DNA of 64,000 nt from Komagataeibacter xylinus NBRC 15237 (lineage in GTDB: Bacteria > Pseudomonadota > Alphaproteobacteria > Acetobacterales > Acetobacteraceae), in assembly GCF_001571345.1 (NCBI RefSeq), contig NZ_BCTP01000015.1, positions 1-64,000 on the forward strand. Reading direction: 5' to 3'. The notes below the pieces were generated by a model. That model saw only the letters and a list, made by a program, of their open reading frames with translations, was not told the DNA's origin and searched no databases. The position numbers and the translations under genes were made by a program. The stretch's first letter is position 1, and every line of letters starts with the position of its first letter. Shown piece by piece: positions 2,964 through 61,763 of this stretch.

Positions 2964-3041
2964 GAAGTTTTTGGTGAAGCTTTTTTTAAAAGCTTCAGAA
3001 GAACGCCGCCTTTTTGAAAAATGGCGGCACCCGAAAACTTC
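2964..3041 (+). repeat. Three-way-junction intergenic repeat, copy 1
   Basis: Outer arms GAAGTTTTTGG and CCGAAAACTTC enclose hairpin 2 (GAAGC...GCTTC) and hairpin 3 (GCCGCC...GGCGGC). It begins seven bases after the aldo/keto reductase stop codon, where it would act as a terminator. Confidence 0.8.
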
Positions 3042-3047
3042 TGTTTA

Positions 3048-4121
3048 TTATTCTGGCTTACCAGCCTTGGCCGCCACCGCCGGACCAAGCAGCAGCAGGT
3101 CGGCGGCTGACAGCCGGTCGGACGCATTACTGGCCTGATGCCAGTAGGGATAGAGCAGCGGGGGCGCGCTTGCTGCATCAAGGCGGCTGATGTCTTCAGC
3201 ACTCAGCACAAGGTCGGCGGCCTTTAGGTTATCGACAAGCTGCGCCTCGGTGCGCGCGCCGATGACGATGGAGGTAATGGCCGGCCGCTGCGCCACCCAG
3301 GCCAGCGCCACCTGGGCTGCGGAAATGTTACGGGCCTCGGCAATGCTCACGAGCACTTCCACCACATCGTAGAGTTTTTCAATGTCATGAACCGGCGGCT
3401 CGCCCCATTTCTCGATCTGGCGCGTGCCTGCGGGCTGTGGCCTGCCGCGGCGGTACTTGCCCGAAAGCAGGCCACCAGCCATGGGGCTCCAGACCTGCAC
3501 GCCAATGCCCTGATCGAGCGAAAGCGGCAGCAGTTCATATTCCGCCTCGCGCGCTTGCAGGGAGTAGTAGATCTGCTGCGCCACGGGGGCGATCAGCCGG
3601 TCGCGCTCGGCCACCGACAGCGCCTTCATCAGGTGCCAGGCCGAGAAGTTGGACACCCCGGTATAACGGATCTTGCCCGCGCGGGTCAGGGTATCGAGCG
3701 CTTCCAGCGTTTCATCAAGCGGGGTCTGGCCATCCCATTCATGCAGGTAATACAGGTCGATATGGTCGCGCCCCAGCCGCCTGAGGCTGGCCTCGCACGC
3801 GCGGATGAGGTGATAGCGCGACAGCCCGGCATCATTGGCCCCCTTGCCCATGGTAAAACGGGCCTTGGTGGTGACCATGATGTCATCGCTGCGGCCTTTC
3901 AGCGCAGCACCCAGTATTTCCTCCGACACGCCCGCTGAATAGATATCCGCCGTATCGAACATGTTGATCCCGGCTTCGATGCACAGGTCAAGCTGGCGGC
4001 GAGCGCCTGCAAGATCGGTATCGCCGGTCTTGGCGAAATCACCCTTGCCGCCAAAGGTCATGGTGCCCAGCGTGAAGGCTGAAATTCTGAGGCCCGAACG
4101 GCCAAGCTTACGGTATTGCAT
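3048..4121 (-). CDS. Aldo/keto reductase
   Basis: NAD(P)H-dependent oxidoreductase of the AKR superfamily (TIM barrel), cytosolic, reducing aldehydes or ketones; the physiological substrate cannot be read from sequence. The 357-residue protein opens with MQYRKLGRSGLRIS, typical of the family, and shows the catalytic tetrad Asp56, Tyr61, Lys86 and His127 (contexts FDTADIY, TTKARF, YYLHEWDG). The start is the ATG at 4121, preceded by GGAAAAGAG; the 13 codons further upstream are not conserved. It stands alone between two copies of the structured intergenic repeat. Confidence 0.93.
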   Translation of the reverse strand: MQYRKLGRSGLRISAFTLGTMTFGGKGDFAKTGDTDLAGARRQLDLCIEAGINMFDTADIYSAGVSEEILGAALKGRSDDIMVTTKARFTMGKGANDAGLSRYHLIRACEASLRRLGRDHIDLYYLHEWDGQTPLDETLEALDTLTRAGKIRYTGVSNFSAWHLMKALSVAERDRLIAPVAQQIYYSLQAREAEYELLPLSLDQGIGVQVWSPMAGGLLSGKYRRGRPQPAGTRQIEKWGEPPVHDIEKLYDVVEVLVSIAEARNISAAQVALAWVAQRPAITSIVIGARTEAQLVDNLKAADLVLSAEDISRLDAASAPPLLYPYWHQASNASDRLSAADLLLLGPAVAAKAGKPE

Positions 4122-4179
4122 CTCTTTTCCTTCCCATAATGCCTGTAAAGCGCCTGTCACGTGGCATTACGCCAATAAT

Positions 4180-4262
4180 GAAAAGTTTTTGGTGAAGCGT
4201 TTTTCAAAAAGCTTTGAAAAGAACGCCGCCTTCCTGAAAAAAGGCGGCACCCGGAAACTTTC
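4180..4262 (+). repeat. Three-way-junction intergenic repeat, copy 2
   Basis: Full-length copy between the aldo/keto reductase start and the stop of the FAH-family gene. Hairpin 2 is imperfect (GAAGCG against GCTTT); hairpin 3 GCCGCC/GGCGGC is intact. Confidence 0.8.
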
Positions 4263-4291
4263 ATGATGACAGGCGCCACATACGGCAGGCT

Positions 4292-4984
4292 TCAGCCGGT
4301 ATAGGTCACGTTCAGTTCGCCCACCCCGGCACAGGTGGCATGCATCACATCGCCCCGCCTGACCGGCCCCACGCCCGAGGGCGTGCCGGTCATGATCAGG
4401 TCGCCCGGCGCAAGGGTGACGAAACGGCTGAGGCAGGCAATGATTTCGGGCACGGACCAGATCATCTCCATCAGGTCGCCTTTCTGGCGCTGCTCGCCAT
4501 TGACGCTCAGGGCAATGGCCCCGCTTTCGGGGTGGCCAATGCGCGCGGCGGGCACCATGGCGGAAATGGGACAGGACTGGTCAAACCCCTTGGCCAGCGC
4601 CCACGGGCGGCCTGCCTTCTTGGCGGCGGCCTGCAGGTCGCGCCGGGTCATGTCCAGCCCTACCGCGTAGCCATAGACGTGCGAGAGCGCCTTCTCCACC
4701 TCAATGTCAGCCCCCTCGCGCCCGATGGCGACGACAAGCTCCACCTCATGATGCAGGTCGGCCGTGCTGACGGGAAAAGGCAGCAGCCCCCCGCCGGGCA
4801 CCACCGCATCACCGGGCTTGGCAAAAAAGAAGGGTTCGGAGCGCTCGGGGTTGCTGCCCATCTCGCGCGCATGGGCGGCATAGTTCTGCCCCACGCACCA
4901 TATCCGCCTGACAGGAAAGACGCCCGCACTCCCCTCCACTGGCACGACAGGAAGGGTGTAGGGGGGAATTACGTACTCCGTCAC
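4292..4984 (-). CDS. Fumarylacetoacetate hydrolase family protein
   Basis: Small single-domain FAH-fold enzyme (230 residues), a family that includes fumarylpyruvate hydrolase, acylpyruvases and oxaloacetate decarboxylases acting in aromatic or 2-keto acid catabolism. Family marks are VGQNYAAHAREMG near the N-terminus, the metal-binding acidic residues in HHEVELVVAIG and GLDMTRRDLQ, and the C-terminal GDLIMTGTPSGVGPV. I chose a GTG start at 4984 (VTEYVIPP), 9 nt after AGGAG; the frame stays open 32 codons further upstream without family similarity. The exact substrate is unknown. Confidence 0.88.
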   Translation of the reverse strand: MTEYVIPPYTLPVVPVEGSAGVFPVRRIWCVGQNYAAHAREMGSNPERSEPFFFAKPGDAVVPGGGLLPFPVSTADLHHEVELVVAIGREGADIEVEKALSHVYGYAVGLDMTRRDLQAAAKKAGRPWALAKGFDQSCPISAMVPAARIGHPESGAIALSVNGEQRQKGDLMEMIWSVPEIIACLSRFVTLAPGDLIMTGTPSGVGPVRRGDVMHATCAGVGELNVTYTG

Positions 4985-5080
4985 GATACGGCGCTCCTGC
5001 TGTTCATACCGGCGCGCATGGTGGCACCCGTGCCCGGTCGTGTCACGGCAAATGCGGGGCAGCCCCATGAAAGCGGACAT

Positions 5081-5114
5081 AAAAAAAACGCCAGCCGGAA
5101 CACTCCGGCTGGCG
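5081..5114 (-). terminator. Rho-independent terminator of ilvC
   Basis: Perfect 11-bp stem (CGCCAGCCGGA/TCCGGCTGGCG) with a short loop, followed leftward by eight T residues. It lies 45 bp beyond the ilvC stop codon. Confidence 0.92.
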
Positions 5115-5158
5115 CTGAAAATACGGTGGCGACAGGTGCCGCCGTTATTTTACGCAGA

Positions 5159-6229
<1,071 letters not shown>

Positions 6230-6745
6230 TTACAGGATTGCCGCCCCACGGGCGATGGCGGCAATGCCCGTGCGCGAGACCTCGGCCAGGCCGAGGGGAC
6301 GCATGAGGTCGATGAAGGCATCAAGCTTGTCGGACGCGCCGGTCAGCTCAAAGACGAACGAGGTGGCCGAGGCATCAACCGGGTGGGCGCGAAAGGCCTG
6401 CGCAATGCGCAGCGCGTCGGCCCGGCGCTCGCCGCTGGCAATGACCTTGACGAGCGCCATCTCGCGCGCCACGTGCGGCTCGCGCCCGGTCATGACCGCC
6501 ACGCGGTACACCGGCACCAGCCGCTCCACCTGCGCGCGGATCTGGCCCAGCACATGCGGGGTCGCGGTGGTGACGATATTGATGCGCGACTGGCGGCGGG
6601 TTTCATCCACCGCGGCCACGGTCAGGCTCTCGATATTGTATCCACGACCTGAGAACAGGCCGATCACGCGGGCGAGCGCGCCGCTTTCGTTCTCGACCTG
6701 AATGGAAATGACCGCGGAGACCGGGCTCTCCTGCTGCGTGGTCAT
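6230..6745 (-). CDS. ilvN: Acetolactate synthase small (regulatory) subunit
   Basis: Regulatory partner of IlvB; the ACT domain binds valine for feedback inhibition. 171 residues, with the N-terminal ACT segment VENESGALARVIGLFSGRGYNIES at about residues 14-37 (only key residues: the GALARV and RGYNIESL motifs) and a second ACT-like half. I start at the ATG at 6745 (MTTQQES); upstream codons are not conserved. It lies 100 bp after ilvB; that gap contains an 8-bp perfect hairpin (6813-6834). Confidence 0.95.
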   Translation of the reverse strand: MTTQQESPVSAVISIQVENESGALARVIGLFSGRGYNIESLTVAAVDETRRQSRINIVTTATPHVLGQIRAQVERLVPVYRVAVMTGREPHVAREMALVKVIASGERRADALRIAQAFRAHPVDASATSFVFELTGASDKLDAFIDLMRPLGLAEVSRTGIAAIARGAAIL

Positions 6746-6812
6746 GATGTGTTTCCTGACTGCTTGGGGCGCCGCCCTGCAGGAGCAGGGGCGGCAGGAA
6801 AGGACAGAGAAA

Positions 6813-6834
6813 CCTGCGGCACAACCGCCGCAGG
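6813..6834. terminator. Hairpin between ilvB and ilvN
   Basis: CCTGCGGC, six-base loop, GCCGCAGG; leftward it is followed by TTTCTCT. It may lower read-through from ilvB to ilvN or stabilise the ilvB 3' end. The T tract is weak, so full termination is doubtful. Confidence 0.4.
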
Positions 6835-6845
6835 CAGGCGCAAGA

Positions 6846-8666
6846 TCAGACCAGCATGCGGCCTTCGGCGCTGATCTCGTCATCCTGATCGGGGCCGAGG
6901 AGCATCTGGTTATGCGCCGCCCCCGAGGGGATCATGGGATAGCAGTTTTCATCCTGCGCCACGCATATGTCCGCCACCACCGGACCGGGATGGGCCAGCA
7001 TCTCGGCAATCACGCCATCAAGCTCGCCCACGCAGGTCGCGCGCAGCCCCTTGCCATGAAAGCTTTCCGCAAGCTTCACGAAATCGGGCAGGGCCGCGCT
7101 GTAGCTCTCGGAATAGCGCGAGTCATGCAGCAGTTCCTGCCACTGGCGCACCATGCCCATATACTGGTTGTTCAGGATGAACACCTTAACCGGCAGACGG
7201 TACTGCGCGATGGTGGACAGTTCCTGGATGTTCATCAGCGTCGAGGCTTCGCCCGCGATGTCGATCACCAGCGCATCGGGGTGGGCGATCTGCGCGCCCA
7301 CGGCGGCGGGCAGCCCGTAGCCCATGGTGCCAAGCCCGCCCGATGTCAGCCAGCGATTGGGTCTGTCAAAGCCGAAATGCTGGGCCGCCCACATCTGGTG
7401 CTGCCCCACCTCGGTCGAGACATAGGTATCGCGCCCGGTGGCGGTGACGAGTTCATGCAGGCGGCGGATGGTGTATTGCGGGCGGATGATGGCCCCGGGC
7501 GCCCTGTCCTGCACGAAGCCGAGGCTGTCGGTCTTGCGCCATTCGTTGATCTGGTGCCACCACTGCGCCATGTCGATGGGCTGGCGGGTATTGGCGGGGG
7601 TGCACTCCCACTCTTCGAGCATCATCTCGATCACGCGCCGCGCATCACCCACGATGCCCACGTCAACCGGCACGATCTTGTTGATCTGGCTGGGGTCGAT
7701 ATCGGCATGGATCTTGAACGAGCCGGGCGAGAACGCATCGAGCCTGCCGGTCACGCGGTCATCAAAGCGCGAGCCAAGGGCGATCAGCACGTCGCAGCCA
7801 TGAGTGGCCATGTTGGCTTCGTACGTGCCATGCATGCCCAGCATGCCCAGGAAGCGCCGGTCGCCCGCGGGCATCGACCCCAGCCCCATCAGCGTGGAGG
7901 TGCACGGAAAGCCCGTCTTTTCCACCAGTTTGCGCAGGGCGGCTGATGCCTCCGGCCCGGCATTGATGATGCCGCCACCCGTATAGAACAGCGGGCGGCG
8001 CGCGCCCTTCATGGCGGCCACGGCGCGGGCAATCACCTCCCGGCCCGGCTCGGTCTGCGGGCGGTAGGAGGGATGCGGCACGCGCGGGGCCTCGCTATAG
8101 GGCGCGGGGCCGACCATCAGGTTCTTGGGCAGGTCAACGAGCACCGGGCCGGGGCGACCGCTGCGCGCGATATGAAAGGCCTCGTGCACGCAGGGCGCCA
8201 CATCTTCCGCGCGACGGATGAGGTAGTTGTATTTGGTGGCCGGGCGCGTGATGCCGGTCGTGTCCGCCTCCTGGAAGGCATCGGTGCCGATCAGCGGCAC
8301 GCCGACCTGACCCGAGAAGCAGACCACCGGAATCGAGTCCAGCATGGCATCAAGCAGGCCGGTCACGGTATTGGTGGCACCCGGCCCGCTGGTGACGAGC
8401 ACCACGCCCACCTTGCCGGTCGAGCGGGCATAGGCTTCCGCCGCATGCACGGCGGCCTGCTCGTGGCGGACCAGAACGTGGCGAATCGCATCCTGGCGGA
8501 AAATGGCATCATAAATCGGCAGGACCGCGCCACCGGGATAGCCGAAAATAACCTCGACCCCCTGCTCGGCCAGCACGCGCAGAAGCACTTCCGCGCCGCT
8601 GAGCACGGATGTATCCGTGCCCGCTGCGTGAGGCTTCAGGTCGGTCTGGTGCGATGCTGTGTTCAT
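6846..8666 (-). CDS. ilvB: Acetolactate synthase large (catalytic) subunit
   Basis: Thiamine diphosphate and FAD enzyme making acetolactate and acetohydroxybutyrate, the first committed step of branched-chain amino acid synthesis. 606 residues, normal length. Visible are FGYPGGAVLPIYDA near residue 42, the activating Glu in RHEQAAVHAAEAYARS, the FAD domain in the middle and the diphosphate site AGEASTLMNIQEL...FILNNQYMG. In this site GEA stands where most family members have GDG or GDA. ATG at 8666 is preceded by AGGAGCAGGACC. It follows miaA by 72 bp on the same strand, so the operon may begin further upstream. Confidence 0.97.
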   Translation of the reverse strand: MNTASHQTDLKPHAAGTDTSVLSGAEVLLRVLAEQGVEVIFGYPGGAVLPIYDAIFRQDAIRHVLVRHEQAAVHAAEAYARSTGKVGVVLVTSGPGATNTVTGLLDAMLDSIPVVCFSGQVGVPLIGTDAFQEADTTGITRPATKYNYLIRRAEDVAPCVHEAFHIARSGRPGPVLVDLPKNLMVGPAPYSEAPRVPHPSYRPQTEPGREVIARAVAAMKGARRPLFYTGGGIINAGPEASAALRKLVEKTGFPCTSTLMGLGSMPAGDRRFLGMLGMHGTYEANMATHGCDVLIALGSRFDDRVTGRLDAFSPGSFKIHADIDPSQINKIVPVDVGIVGDARRVIEMMLEEWECTPANTRQPIDMAQWWHQINEWRKTDSLGFVQDRAPGAIIRPQYTIRRLHELVTATGRDTYVSTEVGQHQMWAAQHFGFDRPNRWLTSGGLGTMGYGLPAAVGAQIAHPDALVIDIAGEASTLMNIQELSTIAQYRLPVKVFILNNQYMGMVRQWQELLHDSRYSESYSAALPDFVKLAESFHGKGLRATCVGELDGVIAEMLAHPGPVVADICVAQDENCYPMIPSGAAHNQMLLGPDQDDEISAEGRMLV

Positions 8667-8738
8667 GGTCCTGCTCCTTCGCCACTGGTGGCCAGAACAA
8701 TCCGGCCAGCCCTGATCAGGCGAAATCCCGGCCCGGGT

Positions 8739-9743: not shown

Positions 9744-9774
9744 TGTTTCATCCTTTTCACTGACCCCGGACCCC

Positions 9775-11614: not shown

Positions 11615-11620
11615 TGATTT

Positions 11621-11632
11621 TTCAATATTGAA
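11621..11632. promoter_or_regulatory. Palindrome TTCAATATTGAA before the cation efflux gene
   Basis: Perfect 12-bp palindrome seven bases upstream of the CDF transporter start codon. It would overlap the start of transcription or the ribosome site, so it is a possible operator. No known regulator is assigned. Confidence 0.3.
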
Positions 11633-13406: not shown

Positions 13407-13412
13407 ATGATA

Positions 13413-13491
13413 AAAGTTTTTGGCGAAGCTTTTTGCAAAAAGCTTCGAAAGAACGCCGCCTTTTTGAAAAAAGGCGGCGCCCAAAAACTTT
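13413..13491 (+). repeat. Three-way-junction intergenic repeat, copy 3
   Basis: Near-perfect copy between the convergent nadK and YgjP-like genes: outer stem AAAGTTTTTGG/CCAAAAACTTT, hairpin GAAGC/GCTTC and hairpin GCCGCC/GGCGGC. It starts seven bases after the nadK stop. Confidence 0.85.
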
Positions 13492-13504
13492 GATCCGTTC
13501 CCTT

Positions 13505-17800: not shown

Positions 17801-18235
17801 ATGAGAATAGGCGAAATCGGTAAAACCATCATTGAAGGGGAACTGACCCTACGTAAACTGATGGCGATCCGTCTTGGTCGTCAGGCCGCATTCCTGGTTG
17901 TGGCAGCGATATTTGCCTTCTTTGCCGTCATTTCAGGCCATGGGCTGCTATGGGCCTTCTGTTACCAGACCCTGGGCTTCAGCGCCCTTGGCGCGGCGGC
18001 CACGGTCTTCGCGGCCGATGTGCTGGTGGTGCTCATGGGCCTGGTGATGGGCCGCCGCTCCTACATGACGCCAGAGGAAATCCGCGTACGATTCGCACGC
18101 GAACACGCCCTGAACGAACTGCGGCAGACCGTGGCGCTGTCCGCCGTGGCCACCACGGTGGCGGGTCCGCTCACGCGCCATACCTTCCGGGCGGTATGGG
18201 GGCTGCTGCGCAGCCTGTCCGGTCGCGGCAGATAA
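17801..18235 (+). CDS. Small two-segment membrane protein
   Basis: 144 residues with two hydrophobic segments at about 30-50 (AAFLVVAAIFAFFAVISG) and 60-85, and a charged C-terminal tail. Adjacent to the ElaB/YqjD-like gene on the same strand, recalling the yqjD-yqjE pair of enterobacteria, where YqjE is a similar two-segment protein. I cannot confirm family membership from sequence alone. A 14-bp inverted repeat lies just after its stop codon. Confidence 0.7.
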   Translation: MRIGEIGKTIIEGELTLRKLMAIRLGRQAAFLVVAAIFAFFAVISGHGLLWAFCYQTLGFSALGAAATVFAADVLVVLMGLVMGRRSYMTPEEIRVRFAREHALNELRQTVALSAVATTVAGPLTRHTFRAVWGLLRSLSGRGR

Positions 18236-18259
18236 CGCCAGCAGACCGCCGCACACGGA

Positions 18260-18293
18260 CTATCTGGCAATGATCCACGTCATTGCCAGATAG
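18260..18293. repeat. Perfect 14-bp inverted repeat
   Basis: CTATCTGGCAATGA, six-base spacer, TCATTGCCAGATAG. It lies 25 bp after the stop of the 17801 gene and 124 bp before the marR start. No T run follows it on either strand, so it is either a 3' end hairpin or an operator site. Confidence 0.6.
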
Positions 18294-18359
18294 TATCCAT
18301 GCTGAAATTGCATTGGCTCACATTCGCGTTTTCTGGAAACGTGCAGCTTCCGGACATAC

Positions 18360-21759: not shown

Positions 21760-22077
21760 TGCGGTTTCGGCCTGCCCCGCCCTTATGGCGCGGCAGGTTG
21801 CGCACGCCAGGAGGGAACCGATAAAGACTGTCTGGAAAATTGGCCCGCCAAAAATCCAGAAATCATAGGGAAGTTTTTGGCGAAGCTTTTTTCAAAAAGC
21901 TTTGAAGGACGCATTACGCTTTTTGACCAGCCTGATGCCCTGCACATTACATGGGCTGGTCTTTATAAACTGATTCAGGCTGCTACGATTTATGAATAGA
22001 GCGGCAACAACTCAATTCAATAAAATCAGGACTGATGATTGTGCTACGCCCTGTATATGCTAAACAGGGCGGCATAA
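21760..22077. other. Intergenic region before tRNA-Leu
   Basis: About 320 bp holding a truncated copy of the structured repeat (21870-21925) and the tRNA-Leu promoter region. I see no coding sequence. Confidence 0.5.
21870..21925 (+). repeat. Intergenic repeat, copy 4 (truncated)
   Basis: Left arm AAGTTTTTGG and hairpin GAAGCTTTTTTCAAAAAGC are kept, but hairpin 3 is reduced to a short ACGCTTTTTGA remnant and the right arm is missing. It is about 110 bp after the NodT-type gene. Confidence 0.65.
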
Positions 22078-27812: not shown

Positions 27813-29204
27813 ATGGGCGCAATTTTAAAGAAAGACATTTATACAGACCCAAGTGAAGACAGAATATTACCCTATAACGGGCAAGCCTTCTTTACTCTCA
27901 ATCGTATCAATAATGGGCATATGACCCAGAAAGCCTACAAGCTGGATCAGCTTGAGTTTGTCCTGTCCAATATTGCCAATAACAGAGATACCTACATGGC
28001 TCAGGGCTTCTTTTCCAGACCATGCAGACGTGCCCTGTTCATAGAAACCATGACACACGCCTATGTGGATATCGACTGCTACAAGACAGAATTCTTTCCC
28101 GACTGGATGACCAGACAGCAGAAGGTGCAAAGCATCCTCTCCTATTGTGATGACAATCTTATTCCTGTTCCTTCAGCCATTATCTCATCCGGGCGTGGCA
28201 TTTATCTGAAATGGTATTGGGCCTCACCTATCCCAAGAGAGGCTGTAGGACGTGCTGTAGCCCTCAACAAACAGCTTGTGTCCCTGTTTGCCCCACTTGG
28301 TGCTGACCCGGCCTGTGTGGACGTATCCAGAATCCTGCGTGTTGTGGGAACCCTGAACAGCAAGAACAACCAGCCTGTAGAACTGTTGCACCAGACTGAC
28401 AGGGATGGTCATGCCATCACCTATGTCTTTGATGATTTTGCAGACGAGGTTCTGCCCTATTCCCTTGAGCAGATACGCGAATGGAGAGAAGCCCAGAAGG
28501 AACGCTATGAAGCCAAGGGACAGGTCATCCATCTGGCACGTGAGAAAGCCAGGGAAAGGCTCAAGGCTGGCAACCGCAAGGCATTCAACAGGTTTGACTG
28601 GTGCTGGCGTGTTGTTGAGGACATCAGAACCATTGCTGACAAAAAATATGGGGACGTCATTCCCTATTGTGAGGAATCCGGGCATGTGGCTGGCCCTGAC
28701 ATGTATGCCCATATCGGGGCGTCCATGCTTGGTAATATCATCCCATCCCAACAGCTATGGCCGGAAATCAAAACATGGGCTGGTCTTATCCTTCCTGCTT
28801 CCTATGTGAATGACAAAAGGAACCTGCTGGCTCATTCTTCCTCTCTGCTCAAGAAAGCGAAGCAGGTTGCCAATATGACGGAAGAAGAACGTAAAAGGAA
28901 CGAGGAAGCCGGACTTCATCGTAAAGGAGCTTATCGCTACAAAACACAGACTATCATCGACAGGCTTGGCATCACGTCTGATGACATGCGAAATTTCAAT
29001 CTCAAGGTGTTAATCGACAAGGACGAGAAACGCAGGAGAGACAGGGAAAACACCATGCAAAAGAGACGCGAAGCCGGAACTGTGGAACGTGTCGAATGGC
29101 TCGCAGAAACAAAAGCAAACAGCCAGGAAGGGCAAAAGCCCTGGGAAGCCATGGGAATAAGCCGTGCAACTTATTTTAATAGAAAAAAGAACGGGTTAAT
29201 TTAA
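27813..29204 (+). CDS. Plasmid-type replication protein with primase-like domain
   Basis: 463 residues. Residues about 60-190 resemble the archaeo-eukaryotic/RepB-type primase fold: AYVDIDCYK supplies the DxD metal pair, IISSGRGIYLKWYW follows, and CVDVSRILRVVGTLNSKN fits the conserved region with the catalytic core end. The C-terminus ends in a helix-turn-helix-like WEAMGISRATYFNRKK. Such proteins start replication of mobilizable plasmids. Strong ribosome site AAGGAG before the ATG at 27813. It supports a plasmid origin for the element. Confidence 0.75.
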   Translation: MGAILKKDIYTDPSEDRILPYNGQAFFTLNRINNGHMTQKAYKLDQLEFVLSNIANNRDTYMAQGFFSRPCRRALFIETMTHAYVDIDCYKTEFFPDWMTRQQKVQSILSYCDDNLIPVPSAIISSGRGIYLKWYWASPIPREAVGRAVALNKQLVSLFAPLGADPACVDVSRILRVVGTLNSKNNQPVELLHQTDRDGHAITYVFDDFADEVLPYSLEQIREWREAQKERYEAKGQVIHLAREKARERLKAGNRKAFNRFDWCWRVVEDIRTIADKKYGDVIPYCEESGHVAGPDMYAHIGASMLGNIIPSQQLWPEIKTWAGLILPASYVNDKRNLLAHSSSLLKKAKQVANMTEEERKRNEEAGLHRKGAYRYKTQTIIDRLGITSDDMRNFNLKVLIDKDEKRRRDRENTMQKRREAGTVERVEWLAETKANSQEGQKPWEAMGISRATYFNRKKNGLI

Positions 29205-29234
29205 ACCCGATTTATTTCGTAATAAATTAGACTG

Positions 29235-29255
29235 GGTCTGTCCCTACATATAATC
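29235..29255 (+). repeat. 21-bp direct repeat, copy 1 (contains TATAAT)
   Basis: Sequence GGTCTGTCCCT, A, CATATAATC. It is identical to 29551-29571 except for one base. The shared end carries a perfect -10 box, so both copies could be rightward promoters or initiator sites. Confidence 0.6.
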
Positions 29256-29470
29256 TGCGTAGCCCTGAGATTAATTAAATCTTAAAAATAGGGTTTAATA
29301 TTACAGGAGACTACCAGAAAAATACTGAAAGAAACCAATAAATCGAAAGCGTAGCATTGCGGAGCGACAAAATGGAACAGACAACAAAAAACAGTCTCAC
29401 GCTTGAAAAGAAGAAATAGGGCAATGAACGAAGTGAAGCCCTTGGCGGTAGCAGAGTAAGTATAATCTTG

Positions 29471-29485
29471 GGTCACTATGTGACC
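29471..29485. repeat. Palindrome GGTCAC-TAT-GTGACC
   Basis: Perfect 15-bp palindrome followed directly by GGGGGG-TCT-GGGGGG and a T-rich tract, lying between the two 21-bp repeats. Possibly part of an origin or nick region. Confidence 0.5.
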
Positions 29486-29550
29486 GGGGGGTCTGGGGGG
29501 ATTTTTTCGATTTTTTGACCAAAGTATCGATTTGGCTTTTTTGTGATACT

Positions 29551-29571
29551 GGTCTGTCCCTCCATATAATC
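29551..29571 (+). repeat. 21-bp direct repeat, copy 2 (contains TATAAT)
   Basis: Second copy, one mismatch. TTGTGA lies 18 bp before its TATAAT, making a plausible rightward promoter. A third partial match (ACATATAATCC) is at 29628-29638. Confidence 0.6.
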
Positions 29572-29824
29572 GCACATTCAATGGTAAACGCGCAGAATTG
29601 CCACGTTATGACCGTTTGACCCATCAGACATATAATCCTACCCCTTAAAGGTTTTTCGTTGCTCCATGTGTCTTATTCCATGTTTTTCATACTATCCCGC
29701 GTGATGGATATACCGGGATTATACCAGAACCTTGGTTTTCTCTGGTTTTTGGGATGTTTTTCCTTTTTCTACCCATTCATCAACAGTATTTTATGTTGAA
29801 TGACACACTGTTTTTTCCTTTCAT

Positions 29825-36093: not shown

Positions 36094-36682
36094 ATATAAT
36101 GCATTGATTTAATAAAATTTCATGGTCTTACCGTAACCATATAAAGCCGAAGCCGGTAAATGTATAATTTCTGTCTGCACGACTTTATAGAAATACTTAT
36201 TACTTGAATTTAGATACTGTTTAAAAAAATAATTTATAAAAAAATAATAAAAGTTTTTAAGTTCTTTTGTTTTTCAAAAATTCAGCACACTTCAAAGCTT
36301 TTTGAAAAAAGCTTCACCAAAAACTTTCTTATGATTGCTGAATGTTTTCTGAGCTAACTTTTGAAACAGTCTTTCAGATATATGGGCGTATCGCTTCCTC
36401 ATAACACCTTACGTTTCCGAGGCTCCAGACTCATAATCAGAACATGACCGTAGTTTCAACACAGATGGCGGCGCAGAAAGCAGTCAAGCATCTGTCATAC
36501 CGGGTTGTAACACGTCCCTGTCCTTCTGCCTGGCAAACCGAATTTCAATGCGATTTCAGCATCTGCAAGACAGGTTGCATTCGTGAGAACCCGCCTCGAA
36601 AACACGGCGTGGTGTGCTACCTCCATAACATGAAAAAGACCCTACTGGCTGGGACGGGCGGCGGCGGGAAGGCGTTTGCCTG
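36094..36682. other. Non-coding region between attR and pglX
   Basis: About 590 bp. The first half is AT-rich and contains an attR-flank similar to the left end and a repeat copy (36249-36328). The second half returns to host-like GC. A 79-codon frame ending at 36683 has no ribosome site or recognisable feature. It may be scar sequence of lost genes. Confidence 0.45.
36249..36328 (-). repeat. Intergenic repeat, copy 5 (degenerate)
   Basis: Reverse orientation. Right hairpin AAGCTTTTTGAAAAAAGCTT and outer arms AAAGTTTTT/AAAAACTTT are intact; the GCCGCC hairpin is replaced by an AT-rich remnant. Confidence 0.65.
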
Positions 36683-44158: not shown

Positions 44159-44227
44159 CCCATTATAAGTATTAAAAACGCATCTTTCCCAAAGCCATTT
44201 CGCACGGCATCAGGCAAAACATACAGA

Positions 44228-44275
44228 CGTTTTTGGTGATGCTTTTTTCCAAAAAGCTTCAGGTAAACGCCACCC
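44228..44275 (+). repeat. Intergenic repeat, copy 6 (truncated)
   Basis: Left arm GTTTTTGG and hairpin 2 with an AAAAAGCTTC arm are present, then ACGCCACCCC where hairpin 3 should begin; the right half is missing. It starts 21 bp beyond the stop of the class II aldolase gene. Confidence 0.55.
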
Positions 44276-45055: not shown

Positions 45056-45655
45056 GATTGCTGAATATTCCTTCCTGTGGCGGGCATGCCGCCCCTTATG
45101 GGGCATGGAATGCCGCAGCCTGCCCCATACGATACGACATGGCGCGACGATTACCTACTGCCTGCCGCGCGTAAACATGAATTCCTTAAAGTAAGCTTCA
45201 GCCAGAATTTCAGGGCGTGCCTGGAAAACGCCGTTGATGAAAGCGAAAGGTTTTTCGGGGTGTCTTCTGAAGGCTGTTTGAAAAAATCTTCACCGAAAAA
45301 CTTCATCATTGCAATGGGTTAATGTTTTATATTTTGCAAAAACTTTTTGTGAACATGTTTTGAAATAACACAGTGGCAGGAAAACAGACCGTTCTCAACA
45401 GCCATTTTTCCTAAAAACCTGTCATTTTTATAAATAATTTTGGAAATATTTATCAATAAATTTATTATTATTTAAATATTTTTATGAATATACTCTCTTA
45501 TAACTGCCAGTTCATGACCGGCGGAAACGCTTTCCTCTTCCATCATTACGGTTTATGTATAATGACGATAACAGACAAGACAGCCCCCGCAGCGCAGTAA
45601 CGCCCCTGCGGGAAAGCAGTGCCTTCATGCCTTATATTTGGTGGATCGGTTTTGC
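45056..45655. other. Divergent intergenic region, aldolase-LysR
   Basis: About 600 bp with repeat copy 7 (45245-45304) and a strongly AT-rich half (45310-45560) that must hold the promoters of both divergent genes. A TATAAT box lies near 45556. No gene is supported. Confidence 0.5.
45245..45304 (-). repeat. Intergenic repeat, copy 7 (degenerate)
   Basis: Reverse orientation. Outer arms GAAAGGTTTTTCGG/CCGAAAAACTTC are kept; inner hairpins are eroded (GAAGGCTG...ATCTTC). Shorter than the full form. Confidence 0.55.
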
Positions 45656-48985: not shown

Positions 48986-48990
48986 AATAT

Positions 48991-49070
48991 AAAAGTCTTA
49001 GGGTGCCGCCTTTTTTCTAAAAGGCGGCGTTCCTTGAAGCTTTTTGAAAAAAGCTTCACCAGAAACTTTT
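48991..49070 (-). repeat. Three-way-junction intergenic repeat, copy 8
   Basis: Reverse orientation, full length: outer arms AAAAGTCTTAGGG/CCAGAAACTTTT, hairpin GCCGCC/GGCGGC and hairpin GAAGC/GCTTC. It begins six bases after the ATPase stop codon, in the convergent region before xfp. Confidence 0.8.
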
Positions 49071-49113
49071 ATTATCAAAGGGTTTTTTCAGGACTGGTTT
49101 TTAAACCCTCCAT

Positions 49114-49138
49114 GAAAAAAGGAGCCTTGCGGCTCCCT
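49114..49138 (-). terminator. Rho-independent terminator of ackA-xfp
   Basis: Leftward GGAGCC-GCAA-GGCTCC followed by six T residues, 24 bp beyond the xfp stop codon. Confidence 0.88.
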
Positions 49139-49161
49139 TTCCCATAACGATCGGACCGGTC

Positions 49162-52861: not shown

Positions 52862-53014
52862 TTGGCCGCACCCAGCCTAGCCCAAAGCAGGCAGGAGAAC
52901 AGCTATTGCGCCACATGGCGCCTGCGCGCCACGCAGGAGGCCCAATGGCCGGGGAGGGTAAAAGTTTTTCCTGACCGAAGCAGAATCAGGGAAAGGCGCC
53001 AGATAAAAGGCCAT

Positions 53015-53094
53015 AAAAGTTTCCGGGTGCAGCCTGTTTTCAAAAAGGCTGCATTCTTCAAAGCTTTTTGAAAAAAGCTTTACCAAAAACTTTT
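53015..53094 (-). repeat. Three-way-junction intergenic repeat, copy 9
   Basis: Reverse orientation, full length. Hairpin 3 reads GCAGCC/GGCTGC instead of GCCGCC/GGCGGC: both sides changed together, which keeps the pairing. It ends 16 bp beyond the hpnG stop codon. Confidence 0.82.
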
Positions 53095-53109
53095 CCCTGG
53101 CAGGCCATG

Positions 53110-55412: not shown

Positions 55413-55416
55413 GGCC

Positions 55417-56298: not shown

Positions 56299-56383
56299 TC
56301 CCGCGTGTTCCGTTCACTTTTACGAATTAACAGTTGCGCCTGTTCTTAGCGGCAATCACCCCCAAGGACAAAATCACGCCTGA

Positions 56384-57247
56384 TCAGACCAGCGTTCGCA
56401 CCGCCCCCGCAAGGGCTGCGAGCACATCCCCGCGTGACAGCTTGACCCGGCCCGCCACCGGGTCTTCCCCGCGCAGCCGCGTGGCCAGCCGCTTTGACAG
56501 CCCCACGATCACGGCCGCCTCCATGCGCATGCGCCTGTCACGGATCAGGCCGGGCAGCAGCGACGCGCGGCGGTTGAGTTCATCCACCCGGTCAAGCAAC
56601 TGGTTGAACACCCGGCGCAGGCCGGGGCTGGCATGGCGGCCACGCAGGTCATCAATGCTGGCCCCCGCCTGCGCAAGCCACGGGCGCGGCAGGTAGCAGC
56701 GGTCAAGATTGCGCAGGTCATCGGCGCAGTCCTGCAGGTGGTTGAGTACCTGCAATGCCGTGCACAGCGCATCCGACGGGCCGAACGTGCCCGGGTTCTC
56801 GCCATGCAGCTCAAGCAGGAAACGGCCCACGGGGTTGGCTGAATAGCGGCAGTATTCCTCCAGTTCCTCCCACGAATCGTAGCGGTTCTTCACCGCATCC
56901 TGCCGGAAGGCCACGATCAGGTCGGTCGCCGTGGTGGCGGGCACGCCTGTCTCGCGCAGCGTCTGGCCCACGCGCACCGCCGTCTGGGCATCGGCGCGAT
57001 GCGGGGCGAGGCGCTTGCCGAGCACCACCTCCTCCATCGCGTCAAGGCGGGCGATCTTGGCAGGCGCATCAAGCTGGTCGGTATCGACGATATCATCGAT
57101 CACGCGGGCAAAATCATAATAGGCATGCACATGCGGGCGCAGCCTGCGGCTGATCAGCAGGGAGCCTACGGGAAAGTTTTCATCCCCGGCATCCTTGCCC
57201 GACGAGACATCCGCGCTGCCCCATACATCCTGCTCATCCGTGTTCAC
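56384..57247 (-). CDS. hpnC: Hydroxysqualene synthase HpnC
   Basis: 287 residues, squalene/phytoene synthase fold, converting presqualene diphosphate to hydroxysqualene. Family marks are ENFPVGSLLISRRLRPHVHAYYDFAR, the first metal site DDIVDTD and the second DCADDLRNLDRCYLPR. GTG start at 57247 overlaps the hpnB stop by four bases (GTGA), giving translational coupling. Confidence 0.94.
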   Translation of the reverse strand: MNTDEQDVWGSADVSSGKDAGDENFPVGSLLISRRLRPHVHAYYDFARVIDDIVDTDQLDAPAKIARLDAMEEVVLGKRLAPHRADAQTAVRVGQTLRETGVPATTATDLIVAFRQDAVKNRYDSWEELEEYCRYSANPVGRFLLELHGENPGTFGPSDALCTALQVLNHLQDCADDLRNLDRCYLPRPWLAQAGASIDDLRGRHASPGLRRVFNQLLDRVDELNRRASLLPGLIRDRRMRMEAAVIVGLSKRLATRLRGEDPVAGRVKLSRGDVLAALAGAVRTLV

Positions 57248-58476
57248 CCTACGTCATCCCCCATGGTGCGGTTCATTACCGTAGCAGTACCCTCGCCACG
57301 CATATGTGTCGAGATCGCACCATCGGGTTCGGTATAGGCGCGACTTTTCCAGACCACGCCCCGCCCCCGATGGTGATCGAGCGCCGAGCCGATGGTGGCC
57401 AGCGTATAGAACCCCGCAATGACCGGCAGCAGCACCGCCCAGGCAGGCGACTGGCCAAACCGCCGCAACGTGGGCGTGTAGGACGCCATGGACAGCACCC
57501 ATGCGCCCGCGCCAAGCCCGCAGGGCAGCCCGTGGGTGAACAGCGCAAGCTGGAGCGGCAGCATCCATACCAGCACCATGCCGATCACCGTGCCCGCGAG
57601 CAGGAGCGGTGAATAGCCAAGCTGCACATAGGCCGTGCGCGCCACCATGCGCCAGATGTCGGACGGATGCGGATAGGGCCGGATGGACCGGGCCAGACAG
57701 CTATGACCCAGATAGATCCGCCCCCCGCTATGCTTGACGTGGGCGGCCAGCGTGCAGTCATCGATCAGCGCGCCGCGCAGGCTCTCGATGCCGCCGATGC
57801 GCGCAAGCGCGCTCCAGCGCACCAGCACCGTGCCGCCTGCCGCCCCCGCCACCCTGCTGCGCGGATTGTTCACGCTGGCGAACGGATAGAGCAGGGCAAA
57901 AAAGAAAACGAAAGCCGGCACCAGCATGCGCTCGGCGGGGCTGGCGCAGTTGAGCTCCACCATCTCCGAGACCTGATCGAGCCCTTCTGCCTGCGCCTTG
58001 GCCACCAGGGTCGAAACATGGCGCGGGTCATGGGTGATGTCGGCATCGGTCAGCAGCACGAAACCGCTGGAATCCGGTGCAAGTTCACGCGCACGCGCCA
58101 CGCCCTGGGCCACGGCCCACAGCTTGCCGCTCCACCCCGCAGGCCGCGCCTTGCCGGTCACCACGCTCAGCCGCCGGTGCGGGTCGGGCACCGCGCGCGC
58201 CAGCCGCCCGGTGCCATCGGTGCTGTTGTCATCAACCAGCACGACATGCAGCGTGCCGGGATAATCCTGTGCCAGCAGCGAGCCGATGCATGCCGCGACC
58301 GATGGCGCCTCGTCACGCGCGGGCACCACCACGCACACATCGGGGCAGGTGGCTGCGTCAAGCTGCTGGCCTGAAACAGGGGCGAGAACCGGCCCCGCCT
58401 GCCAGAAGCGGCCATGACAGAAAATAAGCCCGAGCCAGATGACAAGTGTCAGAATGGAAAGGGGAAGCAGGAGCAT
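57244..58476 (-). CDS. hpnB: Hopanoid-associated glycosyltransferase HpnB
   Basis: 410-residue membrane-bound family 2 glycosyltransferase. An N-terminal membrane segment (LLLPLSILTLVIWLGLIF) is followed by the GT2 domain: VVPARDEAPSVAACI, VLVDDNSTDGT, the DxD-type LLTDADITHDP; several membrane segments lie near the C-terminus. It probably adds a sugar to the hopanoid side chain or acts on an intermediate. It lies ten bases after hpnA. Confidence 0.92.
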   Translation of the reverse strand: MLLLPLSILTLVIWLGLIFCHGRFWQAGPVLAPVSGQQLDAATCPDVCVVVPARDEAPSVAACIGSLLAQDYPGTLHVVLVDDNSTDGTGRLARAVPDPHRRLSVVTGKARPAGWSGKLWAVAQGVARARELAPDSSGFVLLTDADITHDPRHVSTLVAKAQAEGLDQVSEMVELNCASPAERMLVPAFVFFFALLYPFASVNNPRSRVAGAAGGTVLVRWSALARIGGIESLRGALIDDCTLAAHVKHSGGRIYLGHSCLARSIRPYPHPSDIWRMVARTAYVQLGYSPLLLAGTVIGMVLVWMLPLQLALFTHGLPCGLGAGAWVLSMASYTPTLRRFGQSPAWAVLLPVIAGFYTLATIGSALDHHRGRGVVWKSRAYTEPDGAISTHMRGEGTATVMNRTMGDDVG

Positions 58477-58486
58477 GGCAGGCGGC

Positions 58487-59482
58487 TCAATCCAGCATGC
58501 CGTGCTGGCGGAACCAGTCGATCGCGTCCGTCACCGCCTCACGCGCGGGGCGCGGGGCGTAGCCGAGTTCACGGATCGCCTTGTCCGACGAGAAGAACAT
58601 CTTCTTGTGCGACATGGCCAGCATCTCGCGCGTGACGCGGGGCGCAATGCCAAAAGCACGCGACAGCCATTCACTCGCCACCGCCACCGGCCAGATCACC
58701 GCCTGCGGCAGGCTGATGCGCGGCGGCGCCACCCCCGCGATCTCGGCGGTCATGGCGAACAGGTCGCGCAGCAGGTAATTCTGGCCGCCCAGAATGTATT
58801 TCTCGCCAATGCGCCCGCGCTCCAGCGCCAGGGCATGGCCCTCGGCCACGTCATCGACATGCACGATGTTCACGCCGGTATCGACATAGGCCGGCATGCG
58901 GCCTGCGGCGCAGTCCAGGATCATCTGCCCCGTGGGCGTGGGCTTGATGTCACGCGGGCCGACGGGGGTGGAGGGATTCACGATCACGGCAGGCAGCGCG
59001 CGCTCATGCACCAGGCGCAGCACTTCCTGCTCGGCGCGGTATTTGGAGCGCTTGTAGATGCCGATCACGCCATGTTCATGCACCGGCGTTTCCTCATCGG
59101 AGATGGTGCCATCGCCAATCAGCCCCAGCGCCGCAACCGAGGAGCAGTACACGATCCGCTCGACCCCCGCCTTCTGCGCCGCCAGCATCAGGCCACGCGT
59201 GCCCTCCACGTTGGCCACCATCATCGGCACCGGGTCGGGCACCCACAGCCGGTAATCCGCCGCGACATGGAACACGTAGCGGCAGCCTTTCACGGCGGCA
59301 TCAAAGCTTTCGGGGGTGGAGAGATCGCCTTCCACCAGCTCGGCGGGCAGATCGCGCAGGTTGGTCAGGTCGCTGCCTTTGCGCACCATGAGCCTGAGCG
59401 TGTGGCCACGCTCCACCAGATTGCGGGCAACGGCCGAGCCGACAAAACCGGTCGCACCGGTTACAAGGGTTGGGGCAGTCAT
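58487..59482 (-). CDS. hpnA: Hopanoid-associated sugar epimerase HpnA
   Basis: 331-residue extended SDR protein. NAD-binding TGATGFVGSAVARNL at 8-22, YxxxK in IYKRSKYRAE, and NPSTPVGPRD as in other HpnA proteins. The start is the ATG at 59482 (MTAPTLVTG); 19 further codons upstream are not conserved. First gene of the leftward hopanoid operon hpnA-B-C-D-E, divergent from hpnL. Confidence 0.93.
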   Translation of the reverse strand: MTAPTLVTGATGFVGSAVARNLVERGHTLRLMVRKGSDLTNLRDLPAELVEGDLSTPESFDAAVKGCRYVFHVAADYRLWVPDPVPMMVANVEGTRGLMLAAQKAGVERIVYCSSVAALGLIGDGTISDEETPVHEHGVIGIYKRSKYRAEQEVLRLVHERALPAVIVNPSTPVGPRDIKPTPTGQMILDCAAGRMPAYVDTGVNIVHVDDVAEGHALALERGRIGEKYILGGQNYLLRDLFAMTAEIAGVAPPRISLPQAVIWPVAVASEWLSRAFGIAPRVTREMLAMSHKKMFFSSDKAIRELGYAPRPAREAVTDAIDWFRQHGMLD

Positions 59483-59520
59483 GGTCTGAACGATCACTCC
59501 GTCAGGGACAGAATTCACGA

Positions 59521-59539
59521 TTGCGATACGGACTCGCAA
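59521..59539. promoter_or_regulatory. Dyad TTGCGA-N7-TCGCAA between hpnA and hpnL
   Basis: Perfect 6-bp inverted arms seven bases apart in the 192-bp divergent promoter region, about 40 bp before the hpnA start. Possible operator. Confidence 0.3.
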
Positions 59540-59674
59540 CCGGCGGGCGTTCCATTTATCCCGACACCTCCCGGTGGCGCCAGACCCTGCTGTAGTGTAA
59601 GTCAGGCAAAACCAGCCACGGCGGCATCAATTTTCCCCGGTGTCCTGACGCCAACAGACCAAGACGGATCTTTT

Positions 59675-60742
59675 TTGAGAAAGCTCACAATCCTGCTGGC
59701 CCTCCTCGGCCTGGCCCTGCTGACTGGCTGCACCGCCTGGTTCGGAGCCGGATCGGTGATGAAGGCCATCGTCTCCATCGGGGTGGTCGGGTTCATGGCG
59801 ACCGTGGTGGCGCAACTTGCAGTCGATGCAATACTGGGTCTTGCCTGGCACGCGGCTTGCCGCGACATTCCCTTCGTGCAACTGGTGGTGTCGCGCATGA
59901 TCCGTGATGCCGCCGCGTCGTGCCTGCCGTTTTCGCAGCTTGGCGGCATGGTGCTGGGCATCCGCGCCACCTGCTCGAGCGACCTGTTCGCGCCGCGTGG
60001 CAAGGGCCGCGCGATTGATGGCAGCGAGGCGGCCTGCGCCAACCTTGTCGATATCACCACCGAGGTGATGGGCCAGATCCTGTTCATCCTGACCGCCGTG
60101 CTGTGCCTCGTGGCCCACCAGCAGTCCAGCCCGTTCGCGCGCCCGGTCATCATCGGGCTCGTGCTGCTGACCCTGGGCATTGCGGGCTTCGTCTACACCC
60201 AGCGCCGGGGTGGCGACCTGCTCAAGCGCGCGGGCAGAATGCTCGGCCACAACATGGCCGCCCAGTGGCAGGATGCGATGCTGAGCAGCGCTGACACCAT
60301 ACAGGAACGTTTTGATGCCATCTGGTCGCATCCGCGCCGTATCATGGAGGGGGCGCTGCTGCATTACGTGGGCTGGCTGGGCAGCGCCGCCACGATCTGG
60401 GTGGCCTACTACTTCCTCGGCGCGCATCTGAGCTTTGGCGGCGCGGTTGCGATCGAGGGTGTTGCGTGCGGCATCATGTCCGTCTCGTTCCTCGTGCCCG
60501 CGGGCCTTGGCGTGCAGGAGGCGGCCTACATCACCCTTGGCTCGGCCTTTGGCATAGCACCTTCCATCTCGCTCGGCCTGTCGCTGCTGCGGCGCGGGCG
60601 GGAACTGGTCATCGGCATTCCCATGCTGCTTTTGTGGCAGGCCATGGAAATGCGGGCCCTGCGCCACAAGGCCCCCGCGCAGCCGCAAGAAGCCCCCGCC
60701 ACCGTGCCCGCAGGCGAGCCTGCCAAGCCCCCGCAGGACTGA
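59675..60742 (+). CDS. hpnL: Hopanoid-associated membrane protein HpnL
   Basis: 355-residue multi-span inner membrane protein of the UPF0104/LPG-synthase-type transmembrane family, hopanoid-associated branch. Several hydrophobic segments run through the protein; VSFLVPAGLGVQEAAYITLGSAF near the C-terminus is the family hallmark. HpnL is linked to hopanoid transport or remodelling. No ATG fits the N-terminus; I propose a TTG start at 59675 (LRKLTILLALLG) with ACGGAT upstream. The next possible ATG would cut into the first membrane helix. Confidence 0.82.
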   Translation: MRKLTILLALLGLALLTGCTAWFGAGSVMKAIVSIGVVGFMATVVAQLAVDAILGLAWHAACRDIPFVQLVVSRMIRDAAASCLPFSQLGGMVLGIRATCSSDLFAPRGKGRAIDGSEAACANLVDITTEVMGQILFILTAVLCLVAHQQSSPFARPVIIGLVLLTLGIAGFVYTQRRGGDLLKRAGRMLGHNMAAQWQDAMLSSADTIQERFDAIWSHPRRIMEGALLHYVGWLGSAATIWVAYYFLGAHLSFGGAVAIEGVACGIMSVSFLVPAGLGVQEAAYITLGSAFGIAPSISLGLSLLRRGRELVIGIPMLLLWQAMEMRALRHKAPAQPQEAPATVPAGEPAKPPQD

Positions 60743-60788
60743 CCGCGCCGCCCCTTTTGTCACACCCCATAGCCAGACAGACCGCCCC

Positions 60789-61691
60789 ATGACGGACAAG
60801 CCCGCCCCCCTGTTCGATACGCTGGTCATTATCGGCCCCGGCCTGATCGGCTCCTCCATCCTGCGCCGCGCGCATGCCGACCGGCGCATCGCGCGCAGGC
60901 TGGTCGCGTGCGACATCAGCCCCGCCGTGCGCGCCCGCGTGGCGGAACTCGGCATTGCCGATGCAGTCGAGGCCGACCCGGTGGCAGCCGTGCGCGATGC
61001 AGACTGCGTCATCATCTGCGTGCCGGTGGGCGCGATCGCCATGGTTGCGGCCCAGGTGCTGCCCGCCATGAAAAAAGGCGCGATCCTGAGCGAAGTCGGC
61101 TCGGTCAAGGTCACGGTGATGGAGGCCATGGCCCCGCTGCTGAGCGCCTACCCCGATATTGCCTTCGTGCCCGCGCACCCGATGGCGGGCACGGAGTTCT
61201 CCGGCCCCGATGCCGGTTTCGCCACGCTGTTCGAGGACCGGTGGTGCCTGCTGACCCCGCCCGTGGGCACGCCCGCCCCGGCCCTCGCCTGCGTCACGAC
61301 CCTGTGGGAGATGATGGGTGCCCGCGTGCGCGACATGACGGTGGAGCACCATGACCGGGTCTGCGCCATTGTCAGCCACCTGCCGCACCTGCTGGCCTTT
61401 ACCATTTGCGGCACGGCGGATGACCTGGCCGATGAAACGCGCTCGGAAGTGCTGGATTTCGCCGCCTCGGGCTTCCGTGACTTCACGCGCATCGCGGCAT
61501 CGGACCCCACGATGTGGCGCGACATCTTTCTGAACAATCGCGAGGCGCTGCTCGACATGCTCGACCGCTTCATTGCCGATGCGCAGGCCATGGGCCAGGC
61601 CATCCGCACCGGCAATGAGGATGTGATTGTCAGCCGCATCCAGCGCGGGCGCGCCATACGGCGCAGCCTGATCGAGAACCGACAGGCCTGA
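60789..61691 (+). CDS. tyrA: Prephenate/arogenate dehydrogenase
   Basis: 300 residues; oxidative decarboxylation of prephenate or arogenate in tyrosine synthesis. N-terminal Rossmann motif VIIGPGLIGSSILRRA, catalytic His region PAHPMAGTEFSGP, and SHLPHLLAFTI in the dimer domain. No C-terminal ACT domain is present, so it is the short form. It follows hpnL by 46 bp on the same strand. Whether prephenate or arogenate is used cannot be told. Confidence 0.94.
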   Translation: MTDKPAPLFDTLVIIGPGLIGSSILRRAHADRRIARRLVACDISPAVRARVAELGIADAVEADPVAAVRDADCVIICVPVGAIAMVAAQVLPAMKKGAILSEVGSVKVTVMEAMAPLLSAYPDIAFVPAHPMAGTEFSGPDAGFATLFEDRWCLLTPPVGTPAPALACVTTLWEMMGARVRDMTVEHHDRVCAIVSHLPHLLAFTICGTADDLADETRSEVLDFAASGFRDFTRIAASDPTMWRDIFLNNREALLDMLDRFIADAQAMGQAIRTGNEDVIVSRIQRGRAIRRSLIENRQA

Positions 61692-61714
61692 AAAACCATT
61701 TGATAATAAAAGCT

Positions 61715-61763
61715 AAAAGTTTCTTCTGAAGCTTTTTTCAAAAAGGCGGCACCCAAAAACTTT
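61715..61763 (+). repeat. Intergenic repeat, copy 10 (internal deletion)
   Basis: Left arm AAAAGTTTC and first half of hairpin 2 run directly into the right half of hairpin 3 (AAAAAGGCGGC) and right arm CCCAAAAACTTT. The middle of the element was lost by a deletion between its two A/T runs. Between convergent tyrA and pyk. Confidence 0.7.

Follow-up and report, generated by a model that had tools for sequence, protein, structure and literature searches.

The first 64,000 nucleotides of contig NZ_BCTP01000015.1 of Komagataeibacter xylinus NBRC 15237 (the window) contain ten copies of a structured intergenic repeat, all of which lie where an initial annotation had placed them. Taking the evidence as a whole, this repeat is probably the core of a non-autonomous IS4/5-type transposon of about 160 bp, i.e., a miniature inverted-repeat transposable element (MITE). 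Five copies have a full core (1, 2, 3, 8, and 9), two are diverged (5 and 7), two are halves (4 and 6), and one is internally deleted (10), its first half of hairpin 1 being fused to the second half of hairpin 2; the decay described in the initial annotation is thus borne out by halves, internal deletions, and diverged copies. Copies 5, 7, 8, and 9 represent the reverse orientation of one element, which corrects that annotation, and copies 4 and 5 retain outer transposon arms that it had overlooked. The features are listed below, with compared genomes designated by G numbers.

2962..3043, plus strand: copy 1, full core, at the same site and in the same orientation in G116, G115, and G112
4180..4262, plus strand: copy 2, full core, at a site common to G116, G115, and G112
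13412..13492, plus strand: copy 3, full core with convergent genes on either side; G115 and G112 have internal deletions there
21824..21869, plus strand: left MITE arm of copy 4 (AAGACTGTCTGGAAAATTGG...CAGAAATCATAGG), recognised from the sequence and its arm motif
21870..21905, plus strand: copy 4, head and hairpin 1 only, found with the covariance model and nhmmer
36213..36373, minus strand: whole MITE of 161 bp enclosing copy 5, flanked by TTA and TCA, 92 bits
36248..36329, minus strand: copy 5, diverged core within the whole MITE, from sequence, folding, and covariance model
44226..44272, plus strand: copy 6, half core, found with nhmmer and mostly missing in G116
45245..45305, minus strand: copy 7, diverged and shortened, with divergent genes on either side, covariance model E 2.8e-4
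48990..49071, minus strand: copy 8, full core with convergent genes on either side, reversed in G116, G112, and G105 and in the same orientation in G115 and G114
53014..53094, minus strand: copy 9, full core with a GCAGCC/GGCTGC change, from folding, covariance model, and relatives
61715..61764, plus strand: copy 10, core with an internal deletion and convergent genes on either side, full-length in G116, G115, G114, G112, and G106 and reversed in G105

Covariance model R2 detects eight of the ten window copies (missing 6 and 10), and nhmmer finds nine at E 0.001 and the remaining one, copy 7, at E 0.01. For seven copies (1, 2, 3, 6, 8, 9, and 10) the distance to a stop codon is 4 to ~35 nt, and convergent genes surround three of these (3, 8, and 10). 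The earlier statement that most copies follow a stop codon, often between convergent genes, holds for these and fails for copy 4, found 110 bp past a stop, copy 5, ~290 bp past one, and copy 7, which occupies a divergent-gene region.

Once orientation is corrected, copies 1, 2, 3, 8, and 9 share a full core of ~82 nt with outer arms AAAAGTTTTTGG and CCAAAAACTTTT, hairpin 1 (GAAGCTTTTTTCAAAAAGCTTC), and hairpin 2 (GCCGCCTTTTTGAAAAAAGGCGGC). The three-way junction claimed for the repeat was predicted by RNAfold in copies 1, 3, 8, and 9 (z -6.3, -6.4, -5.7, and -4.5 vs shuffles) and partially in copy 2, where the outer stem and hairpin 2 are retained and hairpin 1 is misfolded (z -3.2); for the other five (4, 5, 6, 7, and 10) folding was not significant (z -0.65 to -1.43). 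At the Rfam gathering score the only match in the window was one tRNA, with none to the element. Directly after the strong hairpins comes ACCCAAAAAC or ACCAAAAAC and not a U-tract; the T-tract is a CTTTTA located at the outer stem's base.

Covariation, proposed earlier as a check on this structure, is slight within one genome and present between genera. The 44 full copies of G116 retain 91.2% of their pairs, which is exactly the shuffled mean, with two pair-type counts mildly raised (8 vs 5.3, reached in 37/500 shuffles, and 30 vs 26.4, in 19/500). Between genera, whole stems change in pairs: 192 of 208 units with free stem bases pair fully, mostly as GTTC/GAAC (123) or CTTC/GAAG (62) and never mixed, part of this set having been retrieved through a search pattern in which the inner stem bases were specified and only the outer pair could vary. 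Resident copies within a genome hence show little selection on pairing, and between lineages the stems changed in step. The paired GCAGCC/GGCTGC change of copy 9, from which selection on structure had been argued, makes a weak case, as it is one inherited event that is also found in G116 and G114 and has one side broken in G115.

Recurring outer arms are seen in the flanks of reversed copies. They give a MITE profile of 162 bp composed of a left arm (~45 bp), the core, and a right arm (~36 bp), both ends carrying inverted GAGACTGTTTGAAAA, a motif present with at most one mismatch at 64 places in the source genome (control 0). Of 39 distinct end-to-end MITEs, many of them fetched for a matching end motif, 20 have exact 3-bp flanking duplications, 19 of these being TNA, the triplet duplicated by IS5-group elements; TNA stands to the left of 32 copies and to the right of 31. 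These MITEs come from the source genome and window (21), G113 (13), and, with one each, G108, G110, G116, a Novacetimonas hansenii plasmid, and a Komagataeibacter nataicola plasmid. At the core's own ends no target duplication of 2-9 bp stood out among 42 G116 copies, and one emerged once the MITE ends were known. On source contig C35, a MITE flanked by TCA on each side interrupts an older copy; the corresponding place in G116 carries TCA once, giving a clean empty site. In G113 one MITE abuts an older core with TTA duplicated. The earlier suggestion of a mobile or copied element is supported and made more precise by terminal repeats, TNA duplications, an empty site, and a likely transposase partner. 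As a separate observation, loci L298, L316, L327, and OC35 (source C35) hold MITEs within or adjoining older cores, which may represent intermediate stages in the replacement of one copy by another.

At ~160 bp the MITE has no transposase gene of its own. Its likely partner is a 3,338-bp element on source contig C62:8862-12199 (L329:1363-4700), which has TTA on both sides, ends GAGACTGTTTCAGAAG and GAGACTGTTTCAAAAG that are 14/16 and 15/16 like the MITE ends, and an IS4/5-type transposase with PF13340 and PF01609; such a transposase may move the MITE in trans. The 16-nt ends (GTGACTGTTTGAAAAG) are perfect in elements of G060 (2,704 bp) and G111 (3,627 bp), which have duplications of TGA and TTA, respectively, and like transposases, the G060 one being 65% identical to that of the source genome. 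MITE ends number 70 in G113, 42 in the source genome, and 1-26 in the other 17 genomes, and the closest transposases are those of the source genome (100%) and of G113 (92% over 71 residues, at two contig ends). As a candidate partner, the 844-bp IS5-family elements of the K. nataicola plasmid were discarded, their ends being different. We also noted that the large IS4/5-type transposons (L329, L324, and L325; 2.7-3.6 kb) carry passenger DNA, including a gene with a bacterial PH domain in G060 and a second, perhaps nested, transposase in G111, and that G111 has 41 matches to the IS4/5-type transposase, far above its relatives, yet 3 MITE ends.

Several observations weigh against assigning the repeat to this transposon. 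Exact duplications flank only 7 of the 21 source-genome MITEs (10 of 13 in G113), and the flanks of the MITE around window copy 5 are not identical. G110 has 26 MITE ends yet only distant transposases, and G116, G108, and G102 lack any transposase match at E 1e-30. Furthermore, an arm hit accompanies only 26 of 219 cores, arms being shorter and harder to detect, and the relatives in other genera are without these MITE arms. Conversely, the core is present at 14/16 left-arm and 19/22 right-arm hits. Copies selected by their core reach 0.89-0.91 identity to the MITE consensus across the core, as against 0.54-0.61 across the arms (baseline from the flanks of all called stops, 0.50 and 0.45), a difference that is partly built in because the selection was by core score. 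Most cores also lie nearer to a stop than the length of one arm. Either erosion removes the arms and spares the core, or these arms were absent from many cores to begin with; with so few armed cores, and with arm-less relatives, many may therefore never have belonged to this MITE. The core looks older than the arms, because arm-less relatives with other paired stems occur beyond the genus.

The element is comparable to known IS4/5-type MITEs in being short, gene-less, intergenic, and present in many copies, with ends that match a transposon of the same genome and a 3-bp duplication; it differs in being mostly a symmetric three-way junction, in occurring also without arms, and in its concentration right after genes. 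A second comparison is with repetitive extragenic palindromes (REPs) and their composites, BIMEs and REPINs. Two reports describe REPs as inverted palindromic units in extragenic DNA after genes (PMC3733652, PMC3116915), and the element likewise forms inverted doublets of short palindromic units, each a head plus hairpin, that can fold as a clover, occur extragenically in many copies after genes, and favour convergent or tandem regions. Such habits would suit a REPIN or BIME family moved by a RAYT (REP-associated tyrosine transposase), an explanation that we nevertheless regard as very improbable and rejected on the missing PF01797: this domain had no match in 19/19 genus genomes, nor in 7/8 other-genus genomes carrying relatives, with control genomes positive. 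REP palindromes are adjoined by GTAG or CGTC tags, as stated in PMC3733652 and PMC2817692, the former of which gives CGTC repeats as missing in Acetobacteraceae. Neither tag occurs in the element heads read directly from the sequences; the head is instead AAAAGTTTTTGG (AAAAGTTTTTTG in other genera), and the element has MITE ends and arms with TNA duplications.

The repeat is abundant throughout the genus. The 3.62-Mb source genome contains 157 occurrences of the head AAAGTTTTTGG (reversed control, 5), and there a covariance model built from six window copies scores at least 150 full-length places, and the core was found in all 19 genus genomes examined, with 32 to at least 150 matches each. 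In G116 we counted 72 copies over 468 kb, and in G115 65 over 470 kb, a density that extrapolates to some 500 copies per genome; the 77 copies in 423 kb of the source genome are a biased count, as those stretches were picked partly for holding elements, the G116 stretches having been taken by synteny. A free-standing 11-nt signal was dismissed, since detected elements account for all but one of the 81 exact heads of G116 and G115. Within the family, 17 of 100 sampled genomes match the covariance model, the source genome and G060 among them, the distant ones having the same head and other stems, and a head-plus-hairpin pattern occurs in 40 of 200 genomes, all 200 being of one family, and in 19 of 51 genera (control 0). 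Carriers among the matches listed include Roseomonas, Acidiphilium, Asaia, Pseudoroseomonas, Gluconacetobacter liquefaciens, and some metagenome-assembled genomes labelled as other phyla. Relatives with other paired stems occur across the family. In G020, 9 of 10 relatives are at most 32 bp from a stop; among the 13 of G055, 2 are divergent, 3 lie within called genes, and the halves stand in reversed order. The reversed half units in G055 (L145-L154) and G020 (L135-L144) read hairpin-tail, 40-150 bp, head-hairpin, and form larger inverted repeats flanked by GGAAGG and CTTCC. Phage records gave no match to the element, and in plasmid records the best core place was unannotated in 6/6 and the best MITE place in 6/7, the seventh being a hypothetical protein.

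Placement relative to genes, which were called with our own ORF-scoring script and whose starts may be short, is far from random. In G116, 41 copies are convergent, 29 tandem, and 2 divergent, as compared to means of 13/38/21 for random intergenic placement; in G115 the counts are 43, 21, and 1 vs 12/37/17. Across the two species, called genes contain none of these 137 copies, only 3 copies are divergent, and the median separation from a stop is ~10 bp. At most 40 bp separate the nearest stop from 61/70 copies in G116 and 58/64 in G115, against null means of 11.0 and 10.5 and maxima of 21 and 20 in 1000 draws. The source contigs and the window give a comparable picture for copies above 40 bits (34 convergent, 24 tandem, and 2 divergent). 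The core is present in 40/63 convergent regions of G116 and 39/60 of G115, about two thirds. Insertion aimed at stop codons, suggested by TNA including TAA and TGA, was not supported by a crude test, as 9 of 39 copies abut a long-frame stop vs 31% of random TNA sites. Among 17 pairs of facing heads, the only recurring shared gene set was one orthologous site.

Occupied sites are largely conserved between species and are at times reversed. Between G116 and G115, 67 of 72 sites could be paired, 49 in the same orientation, 11 reversed, and 7 empty or too degraded; between the source genome and G116, 55 of 77 were paired, with 43 in the same orientation, 9 reversed (one of them a nested MITE insertion), and 3 empty. 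About 15% of the conserved sites are hence reversed between species, and at the clearest of these the outer junctions are unchanged, as would be expected if the copies had simply inverted between their outer arms, with no replacement. Two reversed pairs between the source genome and G115, sharing 4/9 private variants, also point to inversion. The other comparisons do not: among full-length source-G116 pairs, private variants are shared at 5/32 in 8 reversed vs 56/114 in 24 unreversed pairs (Fisher 0.0005), or at 3/21 vs 26/65 for the interior only (Fisher 0.025), one of the eight reversed pairs being the nested insertion and some pairs recurring in both comparisons. Six reversed G116-G115 pairs share 0.67 variants per pair, close to the random value of 0.48 and below the 2.0 of unreversed pairs. 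From these shared variants, replacement of the resident by another copy appears favoured on small numbers, and simple inversion unlikely.

What keeps the copies after genes can be read in two ways. The initial annotation suggested a two-way terminator or RNA 3'-end signal, and a two-way 3'-end role of the core would fit the placement and is plausible. The core would then be a selected module at which transcripts from either side end or are shielded from 3' exonucleases, and copies would persist for that reason; we give this a little less than an even chance. Besides its presence in most convergent regions, the core stands as the sole detected 3' structure in 35 of 66 of them in G116, where 7 have both the element and a canonical terminator, 3 the terminator only, and 21 neither. 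In addition, tandem copies avoid close pairs, with 0/18 at pairs that are at most 20 bp apart in element-free relatives vs 63/158 copy-free pairs, the core surpasses the arms in identity, and the stems differ between genera yet still pair. Against such a module stand the equality of paired cells with shuffles within G116, the bias of core-score selection in the identity values, and a short U-tract without side preference: the T fraction outside tandem copies is 0.44 on the far and 0.47 on the near side (p 0.43; 40 copies, G116 and source).

The resemblance to bidirectional intrinsic terminators is accordingly partial. The element is symmetric, lies between convergent genes, and has an A-tract and a T-tract at the base of its fold; however, it has four T at best, cut off from the strong hairpins by ACCCAAAAAC, and canonical terminators stand adjacent. 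Neither of two marks of intrinsic terminators was found, namely an immediate U-tract after a strong hairpin and a T-tract on the side where a transcript from the upstream gene would finish. A canonical terminator occupies 7 of the 42 element-bearing convergent regions of G116, and the notion that the element stands in place of canonical terminators was dropped, several convergent pairs holding both. In the window, a canonical terminator (GGAGCC GCAA GGCTCC TTTTTT, minus strand) lies at 49072-49161 between a phosphoketolase gene and copy 8 and is kept in relatives, so this gene has both structures. Moreover, of shared convergent pairs, the core is in 7/13 and 12/20 in G116, as opposed to 1/13 in G060 and 0/20 in G109; two G060 sites resemble remnants. 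Of the suggested signal, the placement fits, while the short U-tract, the equal T-richness, the neighbouring terminators, and the few copies in G060 and G109 do not.

Alternatively, the copies could be neutral relics of a selfish MITE whose insertions in genes and promoters were purged, the remainder being left functionless after genes, which we consider possible at somewhat less than even chances. The absence of exact pairing constraint within a genome, the decay into halves and internal deletions, and the near absence from two related species would all follow, and the preference of tandem copies for long gaps is also expected because random insertion favours them. Against neutral relics stand a closeness to stops far above random intergenic placement and the persistence of sites between species, 60/67 and 52/55 of the paired sites being occupied.

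Our proposal for the element as a whole is graded in its parts. Following mobilisation by the C62-type transposase, insertions in genes and promoters would be purged by selection, the arms would wear off while the core stays, and new insertions in or beside old copies, together with recombination, may replace resident copies and at times reverse them. Less certainly, the like folding of both strands might explain why the core is retained, as a barrier at transcript ends or mRNA 3' ends that works in both directions. The combined account, in which an IS4/5-type MITE with a two-way three-way-junction 3'-end cargo spread across the genus, sheds its arms, supplies the shared 3' end of most convergent pairs, and is renewed by insertion and replacement, is put forward tentatively and remains rather doubtful in its entirety.

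Two further observations in the window touch other subjects. A perfect 15-nt inverted repeat (ACTATCTGGCAATGA) with a 6-nt loop at 18259-18294, 3' of an ORF ending at 18235, is unrelated to the element. Positions 28561-29656 match part of an Acetobacter pasteurianus plasmid whose annotation there shows IS1380-like and IS110 transposases, and the window from 26 to 36 kb has the look of a mobile region.

No earlier description of the element was found by sequence or topic in the open literature, subscription journals lying mostly outside that scope. What had been read as an independent structured repeat is thus better interpreted as the core of an IS4/5-type MITE that clusters at the 3' ends of genes, and a REP-like repeat after genes need not be RAYT-driven. 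If the core does not act at 3' ends, it still belongs to a dense, previously undescribed MITE family whose likely partner resides in the same genome. If it does, one transposon family would have remodelled where transcripts end throughout a genus, and a natural experiment would be ready, allowing orthologous sites with and without the element, its two orientations, and its halved or internally deleted forms to be set against one another. In acetic acid bacteria the element in any case offers a clear target for mapping 3' ends, for expression parts, and for typing strains.

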